Below are positions 1 to 9,030 of a stretch of 64,000 nucleotides of DNA, in pieces (position 1 is the stretch's first letter; each line of letters opens with the position of its first letter). Origin of the DNA: Leptospirillum ferrooxidans C2-3 (GTDB taxonomy: Bacteria; Nitrospirota; Leptospirillia; Leptospirillales; Leptospirillaceae); contig NC_017094.1 in NCBI RefSeq assembly GCF_000284315.1, positions 1,767,486 through 1,831,485 on the forward strand, read 5' to 3'. A model generated the notes under the pieces. That model saw nothing but the letters and a program-made list of their open reading frames with translations. It had not been told where the DNA came from and did no database searches. Position numbers and translations under genes: made by a program.

Positions 1-243
1 TTACCCCTCAAGGATACTTTTCTCAAGTGGATCCACGTGGACACCTTTTTTTCTGAGCCAATCGATTGTCGATTCAATCTCAGAAAGGTCTCCGACCAAC
101 TCAAGCTCCATCCATCCGGTTTTATCCGAAACATCCGCTCTGCGGATATTCGGAATGACCTGAAAGTTTTTGGAGATCTCGTAGATGATTGGATCCCGAA
201 CCCGGTCCTCGGGGAAGGTCAAATGAATTCGGAGTTGTGCCAT
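1..243 (-). CDS. Stand-alone NIL-domain protein
   Basis: An 80-residue protein made almost only of a NIL domain, the small ferredoxin-like fold also found at the C-terminus of MetN methionine-transporter ATPases. It opens MAQLRIHLTF and includes the pattern IRRADVSDKTGWMELELVGD. The ATG at 243 is chosen because it lies 4 bases after the stop of the sulfur-carrier gene and follows a G-rich stretch; a longer frame to 384 would overlap that gene deeply. It is the last gene of the metK-to-NIL operon visible here. Stand-alone NIL proteins recur beside threonine synthase and MoaD/MoeB genes, so a role in homocysteine or methionine sulfur supply is inferred. No catalytic residues are evident; it could bind methionine or serve as a scaffold. 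Confidence 0.75.
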   Translation of the reverse strand: MAQLRIHLTFPEDRVRDPIIYEISKNFQVIPNIRRADVSDKTGWMELELVGDLSEIESTIDWLRKKGVHVDPLEKSILEG

Positions 244-247
244 TAAA

Positions 248-526
248 CTAAGCCCCCCCGGCAATCGCCGGAATAATAGATACCTCGTCACCGGGAGAGA
301 TCGGAGTTGCCACACCCTCCCTGAATCGAATGTCCTCTTCATTGACATAAATATTGATGAACCGTCTAAGTTCACCGGACTCATCCATCATTCTTTCCCT
401 CATTGCCGGGAATCGCGTGATCAAATTGTCCAAGATCTCCTTTACGGATGTTCCTTCCTCCGAAAGCTCAGATTGCCCACCGGCAAGAGGCCTTAAGGGA
501 GTCGGTATGCGAACCAGTACAGACAT
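248..526 (-). CDS. MoaD/ThiS-family sulfur-carrier protein ending Gly-Gly-Ala
   Basis: A 92-residue beta-grasp protein with the MoaD-like layout: an N-terminal strand (VLVRIPTPLRPLAGG), a central helix (SVKEILDNLITRFP) and a C-terminal strand GDEVSIIPAIAGGA. Mature carriers end in Gly-Gly, which is adenylated by an E1-like enzyme and turned into a thiocarboxylate. Here one alanine follows the two glycines, as in the Wolinella HcyS precursor, whose terminal Ala is removed by a JAMM-type protease. The start has a strong ribosome site (AGGAGG, four bases before ATG) that overlaps the stop of threonine synthase. It lies between threonine synthase and the NIL gene, and the MoeB-like E1 is in the same operon. 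It is more likely a carrier for amino-acid synthesis than molybdopterin MoaD, because no other moa genes are in view. Confidence 0.85.
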   Translation of the reverse strand: MSVLVRIPTPLRPLAGGQSELSEEGTSVKEILDNLITRFPAMRERMMDESGELRRFINIYVNEEDIRFREGVATPISPGDEVSIIPAIAGGA

Positions 527-534
527 GAATCCTC

Positions 535-1812
535 CTAGGATTTCGGGTTGACGATCTGTCTAAAGGAAGACAGGTTGGGGTCGATACTGACCGGCTGGGA
601 CAAAGAACCTGCAAGAGCTTCCATGGTTTTAAGTCCATTTCCGGTTATATAAGCAACGGTTAGCTCATCCGGTCGTATGGCTCCCTTTTCTGCCAGCTTT
701 TTCAGGCAGGCCACAGTCACCCCTCCTGCAGTCTCGGCAAAGATACCTTCTGTTTCAGCAAGAAGTTTCATTCCGTCGATGATTTCCGAATCCGTGGCCT
801 GTTCAACCTGCCCACCTGACTTTCCAACAACATCAAGAGCATAAAATCCGTCGGCAGGATTTCCGATCGCCAAAGATTTGGCAATGGTATTTGGACGAAC
901 AGGAACAATGTGATTTTTTCCGGAAACATATGCCTGGTAAACAGGCGAACATCCCGATGCCTGGGCTCCATTGACCTTCAAAAGCGGATTTTCATCCACA
1001 AGGCCGAGGCGGGTAAACTCGTGAAAACCTTTCCAGATTTTTGTCAAAAGGGATCCCGACGCAATCGGAACAACAACTTGGTCCGGAACCCGCCACCCCA
1101 GCTGTTCAGCCGTTTCAAAAGCCAACGACTTGGAGCCTTCAGCATAATATGGGCGTATGTTGATATTGACAAAAGCCCATGGATATTCTGCGCCAATCTC
1201 GCTGCACAACCGGTTCACATCGTCATAGGTTCCCTTGACTGAAACGACCGTTGGCTTGTAAATCAGGTTACCTAAAACCTTTCCTGCTTCCAGATCATGT
1301 GGAATAAAAACAAAGCATTCCATACCGCAACTGGCAGCATGAGCTGAAACCGAATTGGCAAGATTGCCGGTCGAAGCACAGGCAATTGTTGTAAAACCTA
1401 ATTCCCTGGCTCTTGTAGTCGCCACCGCCACAACCCGATCCTTGAAAGACAAGGTCGGATGATTCACTGTGTCATTTTTAACGTATAGGTTTTTCAGGCC
1501 AAGAGCCCGACCAAGGCGATCTGCACGTACCAGTGGCGTCATACCGGCATGAAGTCCAGCCGTAGGCTCTCCAAGGACAGGCAACAGATCTTTGTATCTC
1601 CAGAGGGAAACTGGACCAGCCTCAATCGATTTTCGAGAGATCTTCCGTCCAATGACTTCATAATCATACTCAACTTCCAGGGGCCCAAAACAAAACTCAC
1701 AGACATGTATGGCTAAAAGCTCATATCTTCTGCCGCATTCACGGCATTTTAGCGCTTTCACGCCGGAATGGGCAGAAGGATCAGACTGGATTGGCACAGA
1801 CGGGTTGCTCAT
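535..1812 (-). CDS. thrC: Threonine synthase-family PLP enzyme with N-terminal zinc ribbon
   Basis: A 425-residue fold-type II PLP enzyme. Cys23, Cys26, Cys38 and Cys41 form an N-terminal zinc ribbon. The PLP lysine is probably Lys124 in PTLSFKDRV, and ASTGNLANS is the phosphate-binding loop. Threonine synthases convert O-phosphohomoserine to threonine. ATG 1812 is chosen over an upstream start at 1878 because GGAG lies 10 bases before it; it then overlaps the E1 gene by 32 bp. Its place between a sulfur carrier and its E1, in a metK/ahcY operon, raises the possibility that it, or a partner acting on the same phosphohomoserine, joins in homocysteine formation. That is inference; the sequence alone supports threonine synthase. 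Confidence 0.85.
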   Translation of the reverse strand: MSNPSVPIQSDPSAHSGVKALKCRECGRRYELLAIHVCEFCFGPLEVEYDYEVIGRKISRKSIEAGPVSLWRYKDLLPVLGEPTAGLHAGMTPLVRADRLGRALGLKNLYVKNDTVNHPTLSFKDRVVAVATTRARELGFTTIACASTGNLANSVSAHAASCGMECFVFIPHDLEAGKVLGNLIYKPTVVSVKGTYDDVNRLCSEIGAEYPWAFVNINIRPYYAEGSKSLAFETAEQLGWRVPDQVVVPIASGSLLTKIWKGFHEFTRLGLVDENPLLKVNGAQASGCSPVYQAYVSGKNHIVPVRPNTIAKSLAIGNPADGFYALDVVGKSGGQVEQATDSEIIDGMKLLAETEGIFAETAGGVTVACLKKLAEKGAIRPDELTVAYITGNGLKTMEALAGSLSQPVSIDPNLSSFRQIVNPKS

Positions 1813-2587
1813 AATCGTGAAGCTCCGTAATGGTTGGATTGTCACCGCAAACGGGACAACGGGGGTTTTTCCGGACACCCACTTTTCGAATAAGAACAGT
1901 CAAGGCATCGTAAGTTAAAAGATGGTTCGTCAGAAGGTCGCCTTTTCCCAAAAGGAACTTCAAAACTTCTGTGGCCTGAATTGAACCAATCACTCCGGCA
2001 ATAACACCGAGAACACCGGCCTCGGAGCATGTCGGGATAGCTCCAGCTGGTGGTGGTTCCCTGAAAATGCAACGATAACAGGCACTTTGTCCAGGAACAA
2101 TCGTCATCACCTGACCGGAAAATCGAAGGATGCCACCATGAACAAGGGGCTTTCCAGTGAGAACAGCCAAATCATTAATCAGAAATTTCGCCGAAAAATT
2201 ATCGGTACCATCCACAATGACATCATAAGGTTCAGCAATCTCCCGGGCATTTTCAGAACTCAGGAGTGCCTGATAGGTTTTCACCTCAACATCAGGGTTC
2301 AGCGCAATCATCTTTTCCGAAGCTGAAAGAACCTTGGGCCTGCCAACATCCTTGGAGTGATGGATCACCTGGCGTTGCAGGTTGGAAAGATCAACCACAT
2401 CCATATCCACTATTCCTATATGCCCGACCCCTGCAGCTGCCAGATAGAGGGCCACAGGGCTTCCAAGGCCGCCCGCCCCAATGATCAGGACTCTGGAGTT
2501 CAAGAGCTTTAGCTGACCACTCCCGCCCACTTCGGACAACAATATATGCCGGGAATACCGGTGTATCTGATCTTCTGTCATTTCCAT
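1781..2587 (-). CDS. moeB: MoeB/ThiF-family E1-like sulfur-carrier adenylyltransferase
   Basis: A 268-residue E1-like enzyme. The nucleotide-binding GAGGLG is at residues 37-42, followed by the acidic DMDVVDLSNLQRQ segment. Zinc cysteines are at 170/173 (CYRC) and in CPVC near residues 247-250. The conserved cysteine is Cys187 in PTCSEAGVLG. There is no C-terminal rhodanese domain, so it resembles MoeB, ThiF and HcyF. It would adenylate the C-terminal glycine of the sulfur carriers encoded at 248-526 and 3583-3786. The start follows GAGG with 8-base spacing. The symbol is a family label; the context favours amino-acid sulfur transfer over molybdopterin synthesis. Confidence 0.88.
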   Translation of the reverse strand: MEMTEDQIHRYSRHILLSEVGGSGQLKLLNSRVLIIGAGGLGSPVALYLAAAGVGHIGIVDMDVVDLSNLQRQVIHHSKDVGRPKVLSASEKMIALNPDVEVKTYQALLSSENAREIAEPYDVIVDGTDNFSAKFLINDLAVLTGKPLVHGGILRFSGQVMTIVPGQSACYRCIFREPPPAGAIPTCSEAGVLGVIAGVIGSIQATEVLKFLLGKGDLLTNHLLTYDALTVLIRKVGVRKNPRCPVCGDNPTITELHDYEQPVCANPV

Positions 2588-2647
2588 CGCAACATCCTCA
2601 TAAGCTTGATTTTGCCAAACGGCGGCAGAATCAAAACCAACGACACA

Positions 2648-3586
2648 CTAGAGGTTCAAATATTTTTCCATCGAAAAATATCGTTCAAAACTATCACAAA
2701 CAATTGTCACAACATGTGAGCCTGGAGGCAACTCTCCGGCCAAGCGAAGCGCCCCAACAACATTAGCACCTGAAGTGATCCCTGCCATTATCCCCTCTTC
2801 CTGAGAGAGACGTCTGGCCATATCAATTGCTTCACGATCTGAGATCTTCTCAATCCGATCAACAACAGATCGATTAAATGTCCTCGGCTCAAAACCGGCA
2901 CCGATTCCCTGTATCCGGTGAGGACCAGGAGACCCCCCTGAAAGGACTGGGGAAGCGGCTGGTTCAAGTGCCCATATCTTGAGATCCCTTTTTTTCTCCC
3001 GAAGATATCGTCCGACACCACTAATCGTGCCACCTGTCCCGACACCAGCAACGAATCCATCCGGAACCCGACCCAATTGGCGGAAGATTTCAGGACCTGT
3101 TGTACGGTAATGGGATTCAGGGTTTGAGGGATTCTCGAACTGTCTCGGCATAAAAAGACCTTTTTCGGATTTTTCCATCTCGGTGGCTTTTCCGATAGCG
3201 CCCACCATTCCTTCCCTTGATGGCGTTAAAAGGACTTCCGCCCCCAAAGCCTTGAGATGGGAAACCCTCTCTCCGGAGACACCTTCAGGCATAACGATGG
3301 TAATGGCATAACCTTTAAGGACAGCAATTTGCGCAAGGGCAATACCAGTGTTTCCGCTGGTTGCTTCAACAATGCGACCATCCTTGCCAAGTCGGCCATC
3401 CCGCTCAGCCTGCTCGATCATGAAAAGAGCCGGCCGATCCTTCACACTCCCGCCAAGATTTCTTGACTCAAGCTTGACCCACACAGTCCGGTCAAGACCC
3501 GCCGTCACCTTTGACAAGGGAAGAAGCGGTGTATTCCCGATCAACGCCAAAGGATTTCGAATAACGTCCCCTTCCGGAGAGGTCAC
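2648..3586 (-). CDS. cysK: Cysteine synthase (O-acetylserine sulfhydrylase family)
   Basis: A 312-residue PLP-dependent beta-replacement enzyme. PLP Lys49 lies in GGSVKDRPA, the substrate loop TSGNTG is at about 76-81, and GTGGTISGVGRYL binds the cofactor phosphate. The HRIQGIGAGF segment is typical of CysK. KDRPALFMIEQAE resembles the equivalent stretch of mycobacterial CysM, which uses O-phosphoserine and a thiocarboxylated carrier (CysO). The enzyme therefore shows features of both types, and its sulfur donor (sulfide or carrier) cannot be settled by reading. The start is GTG at 3586, whose first three bases overlap the TGA of the upstream ThiS-like gene (GTGA), so translation is probably coupled. 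Confidence 0.85.
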   Translation of the reverse strand: MTSPEGDVIRNPLALIGNTPLLPLSKVTAGLDRTVWVKLESRNLGGSVKDRPALFMIEQAERDGRLGKDGRIVEATSGNTGIALAQIAVLKGYAITIVMPEGVSGERVSHLKALGAEVLLTPSREGMVGAIGKATEMEKSEKGLFMPRQFENPSNPESHYRTTGPEIFRQLGRVPDGFVAGVGTGGTISGVGRYLREKKRDLKIWALEPAASPVLSGGSPGPHRIQGIGAGFEPRTFNRSVVDRIEKISDREAIDMARRLSQEEGIMAGITSGANVVGALRLAGELPPGSHVVTIVCDSFERYFSMEKYLNL

Positions 3587-3786
3587 AAGCCACCACCCAT
3601 AAAAAAGAGAATTTCAAGCTCATCATCTTCATTCAAAAGTGTAGAAGGCCATTCTTCACGCTCTACAATTCGGCCATTCAACTCCATTGAAACCAATTGA
3701 GGATCCAAACCCTCGATCTCAAGATAGGAGGACAAGGATGTTCCTTCAGGAACATCCTTGCGTTTTCCATTTACTAACATTCTCAT
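3583..3786 (-). CDS. ThiS-like sulfur-carrier protein ending Gly-Gly-Gly-Leu
   Basis: A 67-residue beta-grasp protein of ThiS type (MLVNGKRKDVPEGTSLSSYL ... VSMELNGRIVEREEW). The C-terminus reads ILFFMGGGL and then TGA. Functional ThiS proteins end in Gly-Gly; this one has an extra leucine. Thiocarboxylate formation would need that residue removed, or the protein is used another way. The ATG at 3786 is chosen because GAGG sits five bases before it and 8 bp separate it from the ahcY stop. The gene overlaps cysteine synthase by 4 bp, so the two are probably made together and the carrier may serve that enzyme. No thiazole-synthesis genes are nearby, which argues against a thiamine-only role. Confidence 0.8.
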   Translation of the reverse strand: MRMLVNGKRKDVPEGTSLSSYLEIEGLDPQLVSMELNGRIVEREEWPSTLLNEDDELEILFFMGGGL

Positions 3787-3793
3787 AGCAACC

Positions 3794-5098
<1,305 letters not shown>

Positions 5099-5127
5099 TC
5101 ACAAAGCATTCCATAAAAACTATCTGA

Positions 5128-6285
5128 CTAGCCTTTTCTTGCAGCCTCACGTCGAAGATTGTCCACCTGATCAAGCTTCTCCCATGTAAAATCTTCTTCG
5201 AGTCGACCGAAATGGCCATAAGAAGCCGTTTTTTTGTAAATGGGTCGGCGCAACTTCAGGTGATCAATGATTCCCTTTGGTGTCAGAGGAAAGATCTCCG
5301 CTACAATTTCAGCGATCCGGTCATCAGGAATGGTCGAGGTTCCCTGTGTTTCCACATGAATTGAAACCGGATCCGCAACTCCGATCGCATAAGCCAACTG
5401 AACTTCACAACGCGAAGCCAATCCTGCCCCCACAATATTTTTTGCTATATATCGGGCCATATAGCATGCAGAACGGTCGACCTTTGTCGGATCTTTTCCT
5501 GAAAAGGCTCCCCCTCCATGTCGCCCCCAACCACCATAGGTGTCAACGATAATCTTTCTGCCGGTCAACCCCGCGTCACCCATTGGACCACCGGTCACAA
5601 ATCTCCCTGTCGGGTTGATATGAAACGTCACGGTCTTTTCATCCAAAAGATTTTTTGGAATCACCGGTCTAATCACTTTTTCAATAATATCCCGACGAAT
5701 TTCCTCTTGTGTCACTTCAGGAGCATGTTGGGTTGAAACAACGATTGTCTCAACGCCTACTGGCTTAAATCCATCATACCGAAGCGAAACCTGAGCTTTT
5801 CCATCCGGACGAAGATAGGGGAGAAGCCCCGTCTTTCTCACATTGGAAAGCTGCCTTGTCAGCCTGTGTGCCAACAGAATTGGCATCGGCATCAGTTCTT
5901 CGGATTCATTGACCGCCATTCCGAACATCAACCCTTGGTCCCCCGCACCTCCAGTATCAACGCCCATAGAAATATCCGGACTTTGGGAGTGAACAGCTGT
6001 CAGGACAGAACAAGTTTTATAATCAAAGCCGAAAGAAGCATCCGTATAACCAATCTCTTTCACCGTTTCACGGACAATATCTTCATATTGGGTATTGTGT
6101 CGCGCAGTAATCTCTCCGGCTACAATGACAATACCAGTCGTTGTGAGTGTTTCACAGGCGACCCTTGCCATTGGATCCTGAGAAAGGATTGCATCTAAAA
6201 TTCCATCGGAGACCTGATCACATAATTTGTCTGGATGACCTTCCGTCACAGACTCGGAAGTAAATAGGTAAGGGGCACGCGCCAT
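5128..6285 (-). CDS. metK: S-adenosylmethionine synthetase
   Basis: A 385-residue methionine adenosyltransferase making SAM from methionine and ATP. The signature motifs are all present: [19 protein letters not shown] at the N-terminus, [10 protein letters not shown] in the middle and [16 protein letters not shown] near residue 250. The length is normal for the bacterial family. ATG 6285 is used because GGAG lies 5 bases upstream. It is the first gene of the sulfur operon and sits about 25 bases after an intrinsic terminator that follows a SAM-II-like aptamer, so its expression should fall when SAM is abundant. Confidence 0.97.
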
Positions 6286-6309
6286 TGGATCTCCTGTCAG
6301 AATCAAGCC

Positions 6310-6341
6310 AAAAAAAAACCCGGTGCACGAGCACAGGGTTT
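6310..6341 (-). terminator. Riboswitch-associated intrinsic terminator in the metK leader
   Basis: On the minus strand AACCC-GTGC pairs with GCAC-GGGTT around a TCGT loop, with one internal mismatch, followed by an uninterrupted run of about nine U. It lies between the SAM-II-like aptamer and the metK ribosome site, the position expected of an attenuator. Confidence 0.85.
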
Positions 6342-6366
6342 ACATGGAATCAAGCGTAAATACCTG
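6334..6366 (-). promoter_or_regulatory. Candidate antiterminator hairpin
   Basis: In the transcript CAGG-UA-UUUAC can pair with GUAAA-C-CCUG across a 12-base loop. This helix uses the 5' arm of the terminator (the CCCUG side), so the two hairpins exclude each other. Its upstream arm touches the last base of the aptamer's 3' AGUCC segment, giving a plausible SAM-dependent switch. The pairing is seen by eye, not energy-calculated. Confidence 0.55.
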
Positions 6367-6420
6367 GACTTTTAGCACTTTTTTTAGGTGGTTGCAACAG
6401 ACCTCAAATCAGTCCACCTT
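6363..6420 (-). promoter_or_regulatory. SAM-II riboswitch aptamer
   Basis: The minus-strand sequence has the hallmarks of the SAM-II (metA/metX-type) aptamer. P1 is AGGUGG/CCACCU. Its loop contains UGAUUU and ends in UUGCAA directly before the 3' strand of P1, and an A-rich linker leads to GCUAAAAG. The pseudoknot can form from loop GGUCU with AGUCC (four pairs around a U-U). These conserved blocks match, in order and spacing, the SAM-II fold known from structural work on the metX aptamer. It begins directly after the predicted transcription start of metK. SAM-II is known mainly from alphaproteobacteria. Confidence 0.85.
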
Positions 6421-6429
6421 GCACTTTCG

Positions 6430-6458
6430 ATCATAAAACGATACCAGCACCATGTCAA
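6430..6458 (-). promoter_or_regulatory. Sigma-70-type promoter of the metK operon
   Basis: TTGACA (perfect -35), 17-base spacer, TATGAT (-10). The expected start lies within a few bases of the 5' end of the SAM-II-like aptamer, which supports both calls. Confidence 0.85.
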
Positions 6459-6467
6459 TATCTTTAA

Positions 6468-6500
6468 GAAAAGAGGAAGCGTTTCGCTTCCTCTTTTCCA
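6468..6500 (-). terminator. Intrinsic terminator after icd
   Basis: A perfect inverted repeat (AAAAGAGGAAGC / GCTTCCTCTTTT) around a short loop, ending in a T-rich tail on the minus strand, just after the icd stop and before the metK promoter. It separates the two transcription units. Confidence 0.85.
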
Positions 6501-6527
6501 TAACAGCGGAAACAAAGGTCAAATCGA

Positions 6528-7778
6528 TCACATATTCCGGATGATCTCATCTCCAAATTCTGAGCATTTAAGCTCTGTGGAGCCTTCAAGCTGGCGAGCA
6601 AAATCATAAGTCACCCGCTTGTTGTGAACAGCCCCACGGAGACCCTTGAGAATCAGGTCAGCCACTTCATTCCAGCCCATGTAACGGAACATCATCTCAC
6701 CAGACAGAATCACCGCACCTGGATTAACCTTGTCCTGGTTTGCATACTTCGGGGCAGTTCCATGGGTTGCCTCAAATACGGCTGCGCCGGTTTCGTAATT
6801 GATATTTGCACCAGGAGCAATGCCGATACCTCCCACTTGGGCAGCAAGCGCATCAGAGAGATAATCTCCATTCAGATTCAGTGTTGCGATAACATCATAC
6901 TCATTGGCGCGGAGAAGAATTTTCTGAAGAAAAGCATCAGCAATCTCATCCTTGATCAGGAGCTTTCCAGCCGGAGCATTTCCACCACAATCATCCCAAC
7001 TGACTGTTTTATCTCCGAACTCATCCTTTGCAACTTCATATCCCCATTTACGGAAATAGCCTTCCGTAAACTTCATGATATTCCCCTTATGGACAAGGGT
7101 CACACTTTTGCGGTTATTGGCAAGAGCAAAACGGATAGCAGCACGCACAAGACGTTTTGTTCCTTCTTCCGAAACGGGTTTAATCCCGATGCTGGCTGTT
7201 TTTGGAAAACGGATTTTCTTCATGACACCAGCTTTTTCAAAAACTTTATAAAGCTCCTGAATGACAGGATCTCCAGTTGCCCACTCTATGCCAGCATAGA
7301 TATCTTCCGTGTTTTCACGAAAAATAACCATGTCGACGAGCTCAGGATGTTTCACCGGGCTAGGTGACCCGAACCAGGAAACAGGTCGGACACATGCATA
7401 GAGATCAAGTTCCTGTCGAAGTGCCACATTGATCGAACGAATACCGCCGCCTACAGGTGTTGTCAAAGGCCCCTTGATGGACATCTTAAACTCACGGTTA
7501 GCTGCAAGGGTATCTTCCGGAAGCCATGTATTGGGTCCGTATACTTCATTGGCTTTTTCACCGGCGTACACCTCAAACCACTCGACTTTTTTCTTTCCGC
7601 CAAATGCTTTCTTCACTGCAGCATCAAAAACGCGAACGGAAGCATTCCAGATATCCTGCCCAGTTCCATCGCCTGCAATAAAGGGAACGATCGGATTGTC
7701 AGGAACAACCAGCTTTCCATCTTTCATTTCAATCTTTTGACCATTTTTTGGGGGGATCAACTTCTGATAGGACGACAT
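6528..7778 (-). CDS. icd: Isocitrate dehydrogenase (NADP type)
   Basis: A 416-residue decarboxylating isocitrate dehydrogenase making 2-oxoglutarate, close to the E. coli Icd layout. Visible are the substrate segment with the regulatory-type serine ([17 protein letters not shown]), [28 protein letters not shown] and the cofactor loop [16 protein letters not shown]. In that loop the Lys-Tyr pair and the downstream Val point to NADP rather than NAD. AAAGGAG lies nine bases before ATG. It stands alone between its own terminator and a leader with two hairpins. In an autotroph running the reductive TCA cycle the enzyme could work in the carboxylating direction; the sequence does not decide. Confidence 0.97.
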
Positions 7779-7802
7779 ACCGCTTTACTCCTTTGTAAAG
7801 TT

Positions 7803-7885
7803 GGGATGATTGTTATCCATGCCGGAAAACAATCATGCATCCCGATTCTCGATTCATTCATTGTTTCGCCCTATTGCGAAACAAT
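7803..7885 (-). promoter_or_regulatory. Two hairpins in the icd leader
   Basis: Two inverted repeats lie upstream of icd. At 7860-7885 a perfect 10-bp stem (ATTGTTTCGC / GCGAAACAAT) encloses a 6-base loop. At 7803-7843 GGGATG..ATTGTT pairs with AACAAT..CATCCC, with a 4-base bulge. Neither has a U-tract, so they are not simple terminators; operator or leader-RNA roles are possible. No known riboswitch class is recognised. Confidence 0.4.
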
Positions 7886-9030
7886 AGAAACGAGTCGGAT
7901 GTTGATTTGACCGATTTAAATCTCAGCACGAATCGCAAACGCATCGCGCCTCTCTCCTTTTTATAAAAGGATTTAAACCCTTTCAGGCCATCCCATTCGA
8001 CCAAAAAATAGGAAGGGATAGAGCAGACTGGTCTTCCTGGAGATTGGGGCGAAAACTTCAAGTTTGCCGCTTGCGGAGCAGGATGCGACCACATTGCGAA
8101 GACATCTTCGGAATATCTCATTGGCGAAATCAGTCAACAAGTCTGGAGAGCATATTTTTAGGATTGATTCTTTTCAGGGATAACCTTCCAGAAACTCAAT
8201 TTTTCGCACATAATAACAGATCAAACATCTTTGAGAATATTCAGAAAGCACCAGAACACATCTTTTGAATACCCTACTCCCGTGATCCGCCATACCCAAA
8301 ACGTTGCCAATTCGCACGCATTGTATTTTTAGCGCATTATGAAAAATAATGCAATAGTAAAGGTCTTCAAAGCATTTTACAAAAGAGCGGACACTTAGGT
8401 ATCGCACAAAATCCAGACAAAAAAAGAGATTACACAAACACTCCCAACAGAACAGTATTCGCACATTCATGCTTTGCGACGAAAATGTATTCCAGATCAA
8501 TACCAAGAGAAGAATGCCAAAAACAAACATCTAACTTCATTCTCATCCATGCTGTTTATTTATTATTCTATTGATACTTAAACGATATATTCTACGCGGG
8601 AGAATCACTTTAACAATCCCAAAGACCTATGGCGGATTTTAGGCAGGAGGGTCTCATTAAAATAATGATCGGAATGGAATCGTAACGAATGGCCGACAAA
8701 GCAGAAGCAATTTCACTGTGGTGTGGGGAGGGCATGCATCCTTTAGCAAAATAAATCTTAGCGTCATATTTCATTTAAATATTTAAAATAAAACAGAAAA
8801 CATACGGATATTTTCAGCTTTTGAGGAGATACCAGCGAACAAACCATGTGATAAGGTTAAAAAACCTACTGGAAAAAGGTCTGTGCTTGAAATTAAAAAT
8901 AAAAATTGAGTTAGCAGAAAATCATGGGAGGGGGATAGTTAAAAAAAACTTTTTTCAAATATTCCATCCCGAGTAACGAAGAATATTCAATTGGAAATCG
9001 ATGGAGGATAAAAACATTCTGAAGTAAAAC
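7886..9030. other. AT-rich 1.1-kb stretch without convincing genes
   Basis: I see no credible coding region, RNA gene or repeat here. The longest frames (minus strand 8174-8530, 118 codons, very Cys- and Phe-rich; 7858-8121, 87 codons) have no ribosome site or recognisable domain. The last 450 bases are rich in A/T runs. It may be decayed sequence beside the tRNA gene, or hold an unrecognised small RNA. Confidence 0.5.

Follow-up and report, generated by a model that had tools for sequence, protein, structure and literature searches.

Genes and features at the metK leader

The window (the whole 64-kb stretch of Leptospirillum ferrooxidans DNA analysed here) was searched against Rfam, and the minus strand of positions 6200-6620 was read. 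A promoter, a SAM-II aptamer and an intrinsic terminator lie there in front of metK and a run of sulfur genes (Table 1). Besides a tRNA, the sole Rfam match in the window is to RF01726 (SAM-II long loops), with 44.6 bits against a GA of 44 and an E-value of 2.9e-5 (all Rfam, 64 kb) or 2.8e-7 (single genome). The margin of 0.6 bits over GA is thin, but the doubt is removed by the conservation of the element in relatives. An earlier note on this DNA, made from the letters alone, had recognized a SAM-II aptamer, an identity that is confirmed by the RF01726 score and by the presence of the expected motifs. The family that it suggested for a covariance search, RF00521 (SAM_alpha), scores 27.2 bits at the same place and does not reach its GA of 36; the correct family is RF01726. 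As expected of an RF01726 member, the aptamer is placed ahead of SAM/methionine genes, here the metK operon.

The promoter, previously described as near-consensus, indeed has 11 of 12 consensus matches (TTGACA-17-TATGAT) and is the top of 11 promoter-like sites in positions 1-8000 of the window, in a scan whose loose cut-off would give about 8 sites per 8 kb by chance. Promoter-like hexamers of a similar kind are found 5' of the aptamer in many relatives. A long hairpin, GAGGAAGCG-AAA-CGCTTCCTC (6497-6469, minus strand), with A and T runs on its flanks, separates the metK promoter from an isocitrate dehydrogenase-like gene and is probably the terminator of the latter.

The genes of the operon are closely spaced on a single strand, with phoB/phoR-like genes next (the latter by reading only). 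The operon is longer than the eight genes counted in the earlier note; past the window edge it continues with a second moeB and a JAB/Mec-type peptidase gene. The thiS-like ORF of 67 codons overlaps the GTG start of cysK and fills the interval between ahcY and cysK, so that there is no real gap in the operon at this point. An E1-like enzyme, a JAB peptidase and a sulfur carrier whose GG is followed by a C-terminal Ala make up a set similar to the protein-thiocarboxylate sulfur-transfer systems known in homocysteine or cysteine synthesis. The genes fit SAM and homocysteine metabolism, which supports the switch model proposed below. In family f7, the riboswitch and terminator precede not metK but Mec-cysM-thrC-tusA-carrier-moeB-NIL, which ties the switch to the pathway independently. 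The MetK of a Leptospirillum sp. relative is 98.5% identical to that of the window.

Table 1. Features of the metK leader and operon (positions in the window)
Feature	Position	Strand	Details
Sigma-70-type promoter	6430-6458	-	-35 TTGACA 6458-6453, 17-nt spacer, -10 TATGAT 6435-6430
SAM-II aptamer, long-loop subtype (RF01726)	6362-6423	-	Rfam score; conserved in relatives
P1 hairpin	6386-6419	-	AGGUGG 6419-6414 with CCACCU 6391-6386; loop L1 6413-6392
P2 pseudoknot core	6375-6395	-	GCA 6395-6393 with UGC 6377-6375
P2 3' extension (P2a in PMC6061858)	6367-6403	-	GGU 6403-6401 with GUC 6369-6367
Conserved, putatively SAM-contacting strand GUGCUAAA	6371-6378	-	Assigned by SAM-V analogy; GUGCUAA invariant in 27/27 leaders
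Switch strand AGUCCAGG	6363-6370	-	Half of P2 extension or half of antiterminator
Antiterminator (predicted)	6330-6370	-	AGU 6370-6368/GCU 6332-6330; CAGG 6366-6363/CCUG 6337-6334; linker helix UUUAC 6360-6356/GUAAA 6343-6339
Intrinsic terminator	6310-6341	-	Stem 6339-6331/6326-6318, U6335 x C6322 mismatch; could be prolonged by A6340/A6341 pairing into U tract 6318-6310
metK	5128-6285	-	TIGR01034, 584.7 bits; ATG 6285-6283; Shine-Dalgarno AGGAG 6295-6291
ahcY, adenosylhomocysteinase	3794-5068	-	TIGR00936, 632.4 bits
thiS-like small ORF	3583-3786	-	By sequence reading
cysK	2648-3586	-	
moeB/thiF	1781-2587	-	
thrC	535-1878	-	
ThiS/SAMP-like sulfur carrier	248-526	-	End AIAGGA
NIL-domain ORF	1-384	-	

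Aptamer, terminator and predicted antiterminator in 27 leaders

Read from the sequence, the aptamer motifs are P1, UGAUUU, UUGCAA, A7 and GUGCUAAAA; A7 comes after P1 and is followed by GUGCUAAAAGUCCAGG. In an alignment of 27 distinct leaders, UGAUUU, UUGCAA, UUGCAACCAC and GUGCUAA are invariant and the next A is conserved in at least 90%. The order of the leader parts is the same in relatives; hardly any change is seen in the aptamer core, the terminator or the U tract, and the linker is variable. By analogy with the SAM-V structure (PMC6061858), GUGCUAAA would contribute a U that contacts the adenine, an A in the triple at the sulfonium and an A that contacts the aminoacyl part. One aptamer (locus L015, genome G130) has GUGCUAAUU in place of the near-universal GUGCUAAAA, the altered base being one expected to contact the amino-acid end of SAM.

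The helices differ in what they reveal by covariation. P1 shows a compensatory G-C to C-G change in family f7, and its inner five pairs are otherwise always paired. Together, P1 and the terminator stem are paired in 92.4% of cells, with 8 double-sided changed cells against a shuffled mean of 1.8, and their covariation score was reached by none of 500 shuffles. The P2 core (GCA/UGC) is paired in 100% of cells yet invariant, and is therefore uninformative on covariation. Of 19 distinct aptamers, 18 could form all three base pairs of the P2 extension (GGU/GUC, GAC/GUC, GGC/GCC), a weak and non-discriminating test because 85% of swapped pairs pass as well.

The terminator (6340-6310), AACCCUGUGC-UCGU-GCACCGGGUU followed by a U tract, sits between the aptamer and metK. 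It is joined to the aptamer by a short linker, and past the U tract come AGGAG and the metK ATG. The terminator noticed in the earlier note is confirmed. So is the proposal that its 5' arm can alternatively pair with the segment after the aptamer. When the nascent RNA was folded without the terminator 3' arm, stopping where the 5' arm ends, an antiterminator was the predicted fold in all 27 distinct leaders, AGUCCAGG pairing here with the 5' arm CCUGUGCU. The layout is common to 27/27: the SAM-site flank contributes two to three bases, which are paired to GCU (GC in f7), the next three to four bases of the tail pair with CCUG (CCC in genome G156), and the variable linker between them often folds too. 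The tail sequence varies by family (AGUCCAGG, AGGCCGGG, AGCUUGGG, AGUCGGG, AGAGCCAGG, AGUUCAG) with the pairing kept. At the level of sequence, this antiterminator is mutually exclusive with the terminator and overlaps the aptamer.

The antiterminator core has 3 double-sided changed cells against a shuffled mean of 0.6 (reached in 3/500). When its partner strand is shifted along, pairing falls from 86% to 8-60%. These counts come from leaders that share ancestry and are non-independent events. Shuffle tests on single leaders are mostly not significant (p about 0.02-0.6), as expected for segments so short, and the case therefore rests on recurrence across related sequences and on the site pattern. 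The argument is carried by the loss of pairing on shifting, by the varied tails that still pair and by U6335 in the 5' arm. In the terminator U6335 faces C or U in 17/27 leaders, all of them in the window's family (f1), and in the antiterminator the same position pairs with the tail in 23/27 (with a tail A in f1); family f7 carries C in the arm and G in the tail, both partners having changed together. The antiterminator therefore accounts for this arm base better than the terminator does.

A putative transcriptional OFF switch

Judged from sequence and its conservation, the element is a genuine SAM-II long-loop riboswitch, and it very probably turns the metK-led sulfur operon OFF at the level of transcription. 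In the model we propose, RNA polymerase would start a few bases before P1. If SAM binds, the pseudoknot would hold GUGCUAAAAGUC and the adjoining AGUCCAGG would be unable to invade the terminator fully; AACCCUGUGC would then pair with GCACCGGGUU, leading to a stop in the U tract ahead of metK. If SAM is absent, AGUCCAGG and the linker would pair with the 5' arm CCUGUGCU once it is made and before the 3' arm exists, and with the antiterminator formed the polymerase would continue into metK and the sulfur genes that follow it.

In every leader the terminator is the more stable of the two states (here -23.2 kcal/mol, versus -17.9 kcal/mol for the antiterminator). Since the terminator is favoured at equilibrium, the proposed switch must depend on co-transcriptional timing, and the antiterminator, which needs the 5' arm only, is able to form first. 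The same energies would suit a constitutive attenuator, in which the terminator yields a short RNA and sets a basal level only, and the aptamer mainly stabilizes that RNA. Terminated sRNAs do arise from the SAM-II leaders of Sinorhizobium meliloti, where the metA terminator comes without a predictable SAM-II-driven antiterminator (PMC9373788), and two g3 genomes have an orphan SAM-II and terminator with no met gene after them. However, the antiterminator is conserved and has bases in common with the SAM-site flank in 27/27 leaders, and the window's family retains a mismatch that weakens the terminator; both make this explanation improbable. For several g3 genomes, folding without constraints gives as its minimum a longer antiterminator, with the A tract and GUGC paired to GCAC and the U tract.

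Less probable still is translational control, in which SAM binding would hide the ribosome-binding site of metK and the terminator would be incidental. Translational SAM-II and SAM-V riboswitches exist (PMC6061858), and Bacteroidota relatives of the same aptamer nearly always lack a terminator; yet the metK Shine-Dalgarno sequence lies past the U tract and some 70 nt away from the tail of the aptamer, with no conserved pairing to it seen, and terminators are present in 24/24 Nitrospirota leaders with pairs that covary. Hardly any weight can be given to the SAM-free fold of the earlier note, TGGACT (6411-6416) with AGTCCA (6365-6370) competing with P1, for which the window has a 6-bp match and many relatives a possible UGGA/UCCA, but which has zero double-sided changes and covaries no better than shuffles (157/500), loses the pair 6412-6369 in 19/27 leaders, and would break P1 where the antiterminator leaves it intact.

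Distribution, expression platforms and known systems

Among 396 Nitrospirota genomes scanned, 25 have RF01726 at E <= 0.001. These include 18 of the 21 genomes of the window's family and members of four other Nitrospirota families, where aptamer and terminator occur together, mostly ahead of metK; the three genomes of the window's family with no match are incomplete assemblies (71-80%). The terminator-type platform, the site ahead of metK and the Nitrospirota host, all advanced by the earlier note, are supported. SAM-I (RF00162) is found in 9/396 genomes, only in families f4 and f10, and SAM-II was seen in none of these. In a MetK tree, the SAM-II-linked MetKs fall among the Nitrospirota MetKs, apart from those of Fermentibacteria, Spirochaetes and Bacteroidota, and the SAM-II label must have changed at least twice on the tree. 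Early presence with losses, or transfer inside the phylum, may account for this distribution. The idea that the riboswitch arrived along with a foreign metK was rejected, as the SAM-II-linked MetKs group with Nitrospirota MetKs.

Some copies are found away from methionine genes. A second SAM-II and terminator, with its own promoter-like sequence, is present at L108 (2460-2340, minus strand) and at L028/L062 (g3 genomes), where the next gene is a small ORF with no Pfam match and not a methionine gene; these copies are possibly orphan riboswitch RNAs or relics. Long-loop motifs with metK absent from the next 3 kb also occur in Entotheonella/Tectomicrobia and Acidobacteria (L031, L037, L058, L106, L036, L070).

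The long-loop motif is also found before metK in Bacteroidota and Fermentibacteria, and platforms were compared in a census of 78 loci, a pattern scan of species genomes with phyla taken from record titles and a hairpin rule of our own definition. A terminator-like hairpin follows the aptamer in 24/24 Nitrospirota, 23/25 Fermentibacteria, 3/3 Acidobacteria and 1/1 Gemmatimonadota loci, and in 1/18 Bacteroidota, 0/3 Entotheonella/Tectomicrobia and 0/2 Spirochaetes loci. At Fermentibacteria loci, including L029, L033, L045, L081 and L097, the tail of the aptamer (AGCCGUC, for instance) is a match to the 5' arm of the terminator and could form 4-8 bp with the 3' arm, a geometry opposite to that in Nitrospirota; by eye, loop L1 (GAGGU/GAGGC) also matches ACCUC/GCCUC directly 5' of the terminator. 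We lean slightly towards the view that one SAM-II subtype is wired to transcription oppositely across phyla: the strand next to the SAM site would complement the 5' arm in Nitrospirota, and would mimic the 5' arm and pair with the 3' arm in Fermentibacteria, with Bacteroidota usually lacking a terminator. If true, the opposite wiring would mean that expression platforms were designed convergently around a single pseudoknot strand.

The sensor is of a known type, and what is added here is the lineage and a conserved, detailed switching layout. A search of the open-access literature turned up no paper that reports SAM-II from Leptospirillum or Nitrospirota. Two premises of the earlier note need revision. 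The known range of SAM-II already extends beyond Alphaproteobacteria, since Weinberg et al. (2010, PMC2864571) described RF01726 in Bacteroidetes and marine samples, and it is metK-linked in Bacteroidota and Fermentibacteria. The premise of translational action fails as well, since transcriptional control is the mode already described for most SAM-II and is established in print (PMC9373788, PMC6061858). A riboswitch class first seen in Alphaproteobacteria would have been kept to regulate SAM synthesis in the family of this iron-oxidizing Leptospirillum, a family relevant to bioleaching, and genes for thiocarboxylate-type sulfur transfer (MoeB, ThiS-like carrier, Mec/JAB, NIL) would stand behind a SAM sensor. 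The parts worth following are the conserved antiterminator, a compact one in which the ligand-gated strand would also be the switching strand, and the contrast between phyla, with the Nitrospirota, Fermentibacteria and Bacteroidota leaders offering a natural comparison of one aptamer joined to different expression platforms.

Like other RF01726 members (PMC2864571), the leader has a covariance match above GA, P1, and the conserved loop and tail, and its relatives also stand ahead of metK; unlike the Bacteroidota copies found here, nearly always without a terminator, every Nitrospirota copy has one. With the SAM-II/metA element RF00521 (Corbino et al. 2005, PMC1273637) it shares a promoter directly 5' of P1, a pseudoknot that is predicted here and, as in many members of that family, an intrinsic terminator between P2 and the gene. 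The window copy falls below the RF00521 GA (27.2 versus 36), whereas the copies of families f7 (L109, 2048-2124) and f43 (L112, 1520-1596) pass it and bridge the two models; as the f43 copy passes both RF00521 and RF01726, the two Rfam models overlap in Nitrospirota. The S. meliloti metZ SAM-II (PMC9373788) is likewise predicted to terminate transcription on SAM binding, but it controls metZ in an alphaproteobacterium and not a metK operon. Finally, SAM-V (PMC6061858) has a SAM pocket of the kind assigned here, by analogy, to an H-type pseudoknot; unlike the switch proposed for metK, it is translational, its 2-bp 3' extension covering the Shine-Dalgarno sequence.
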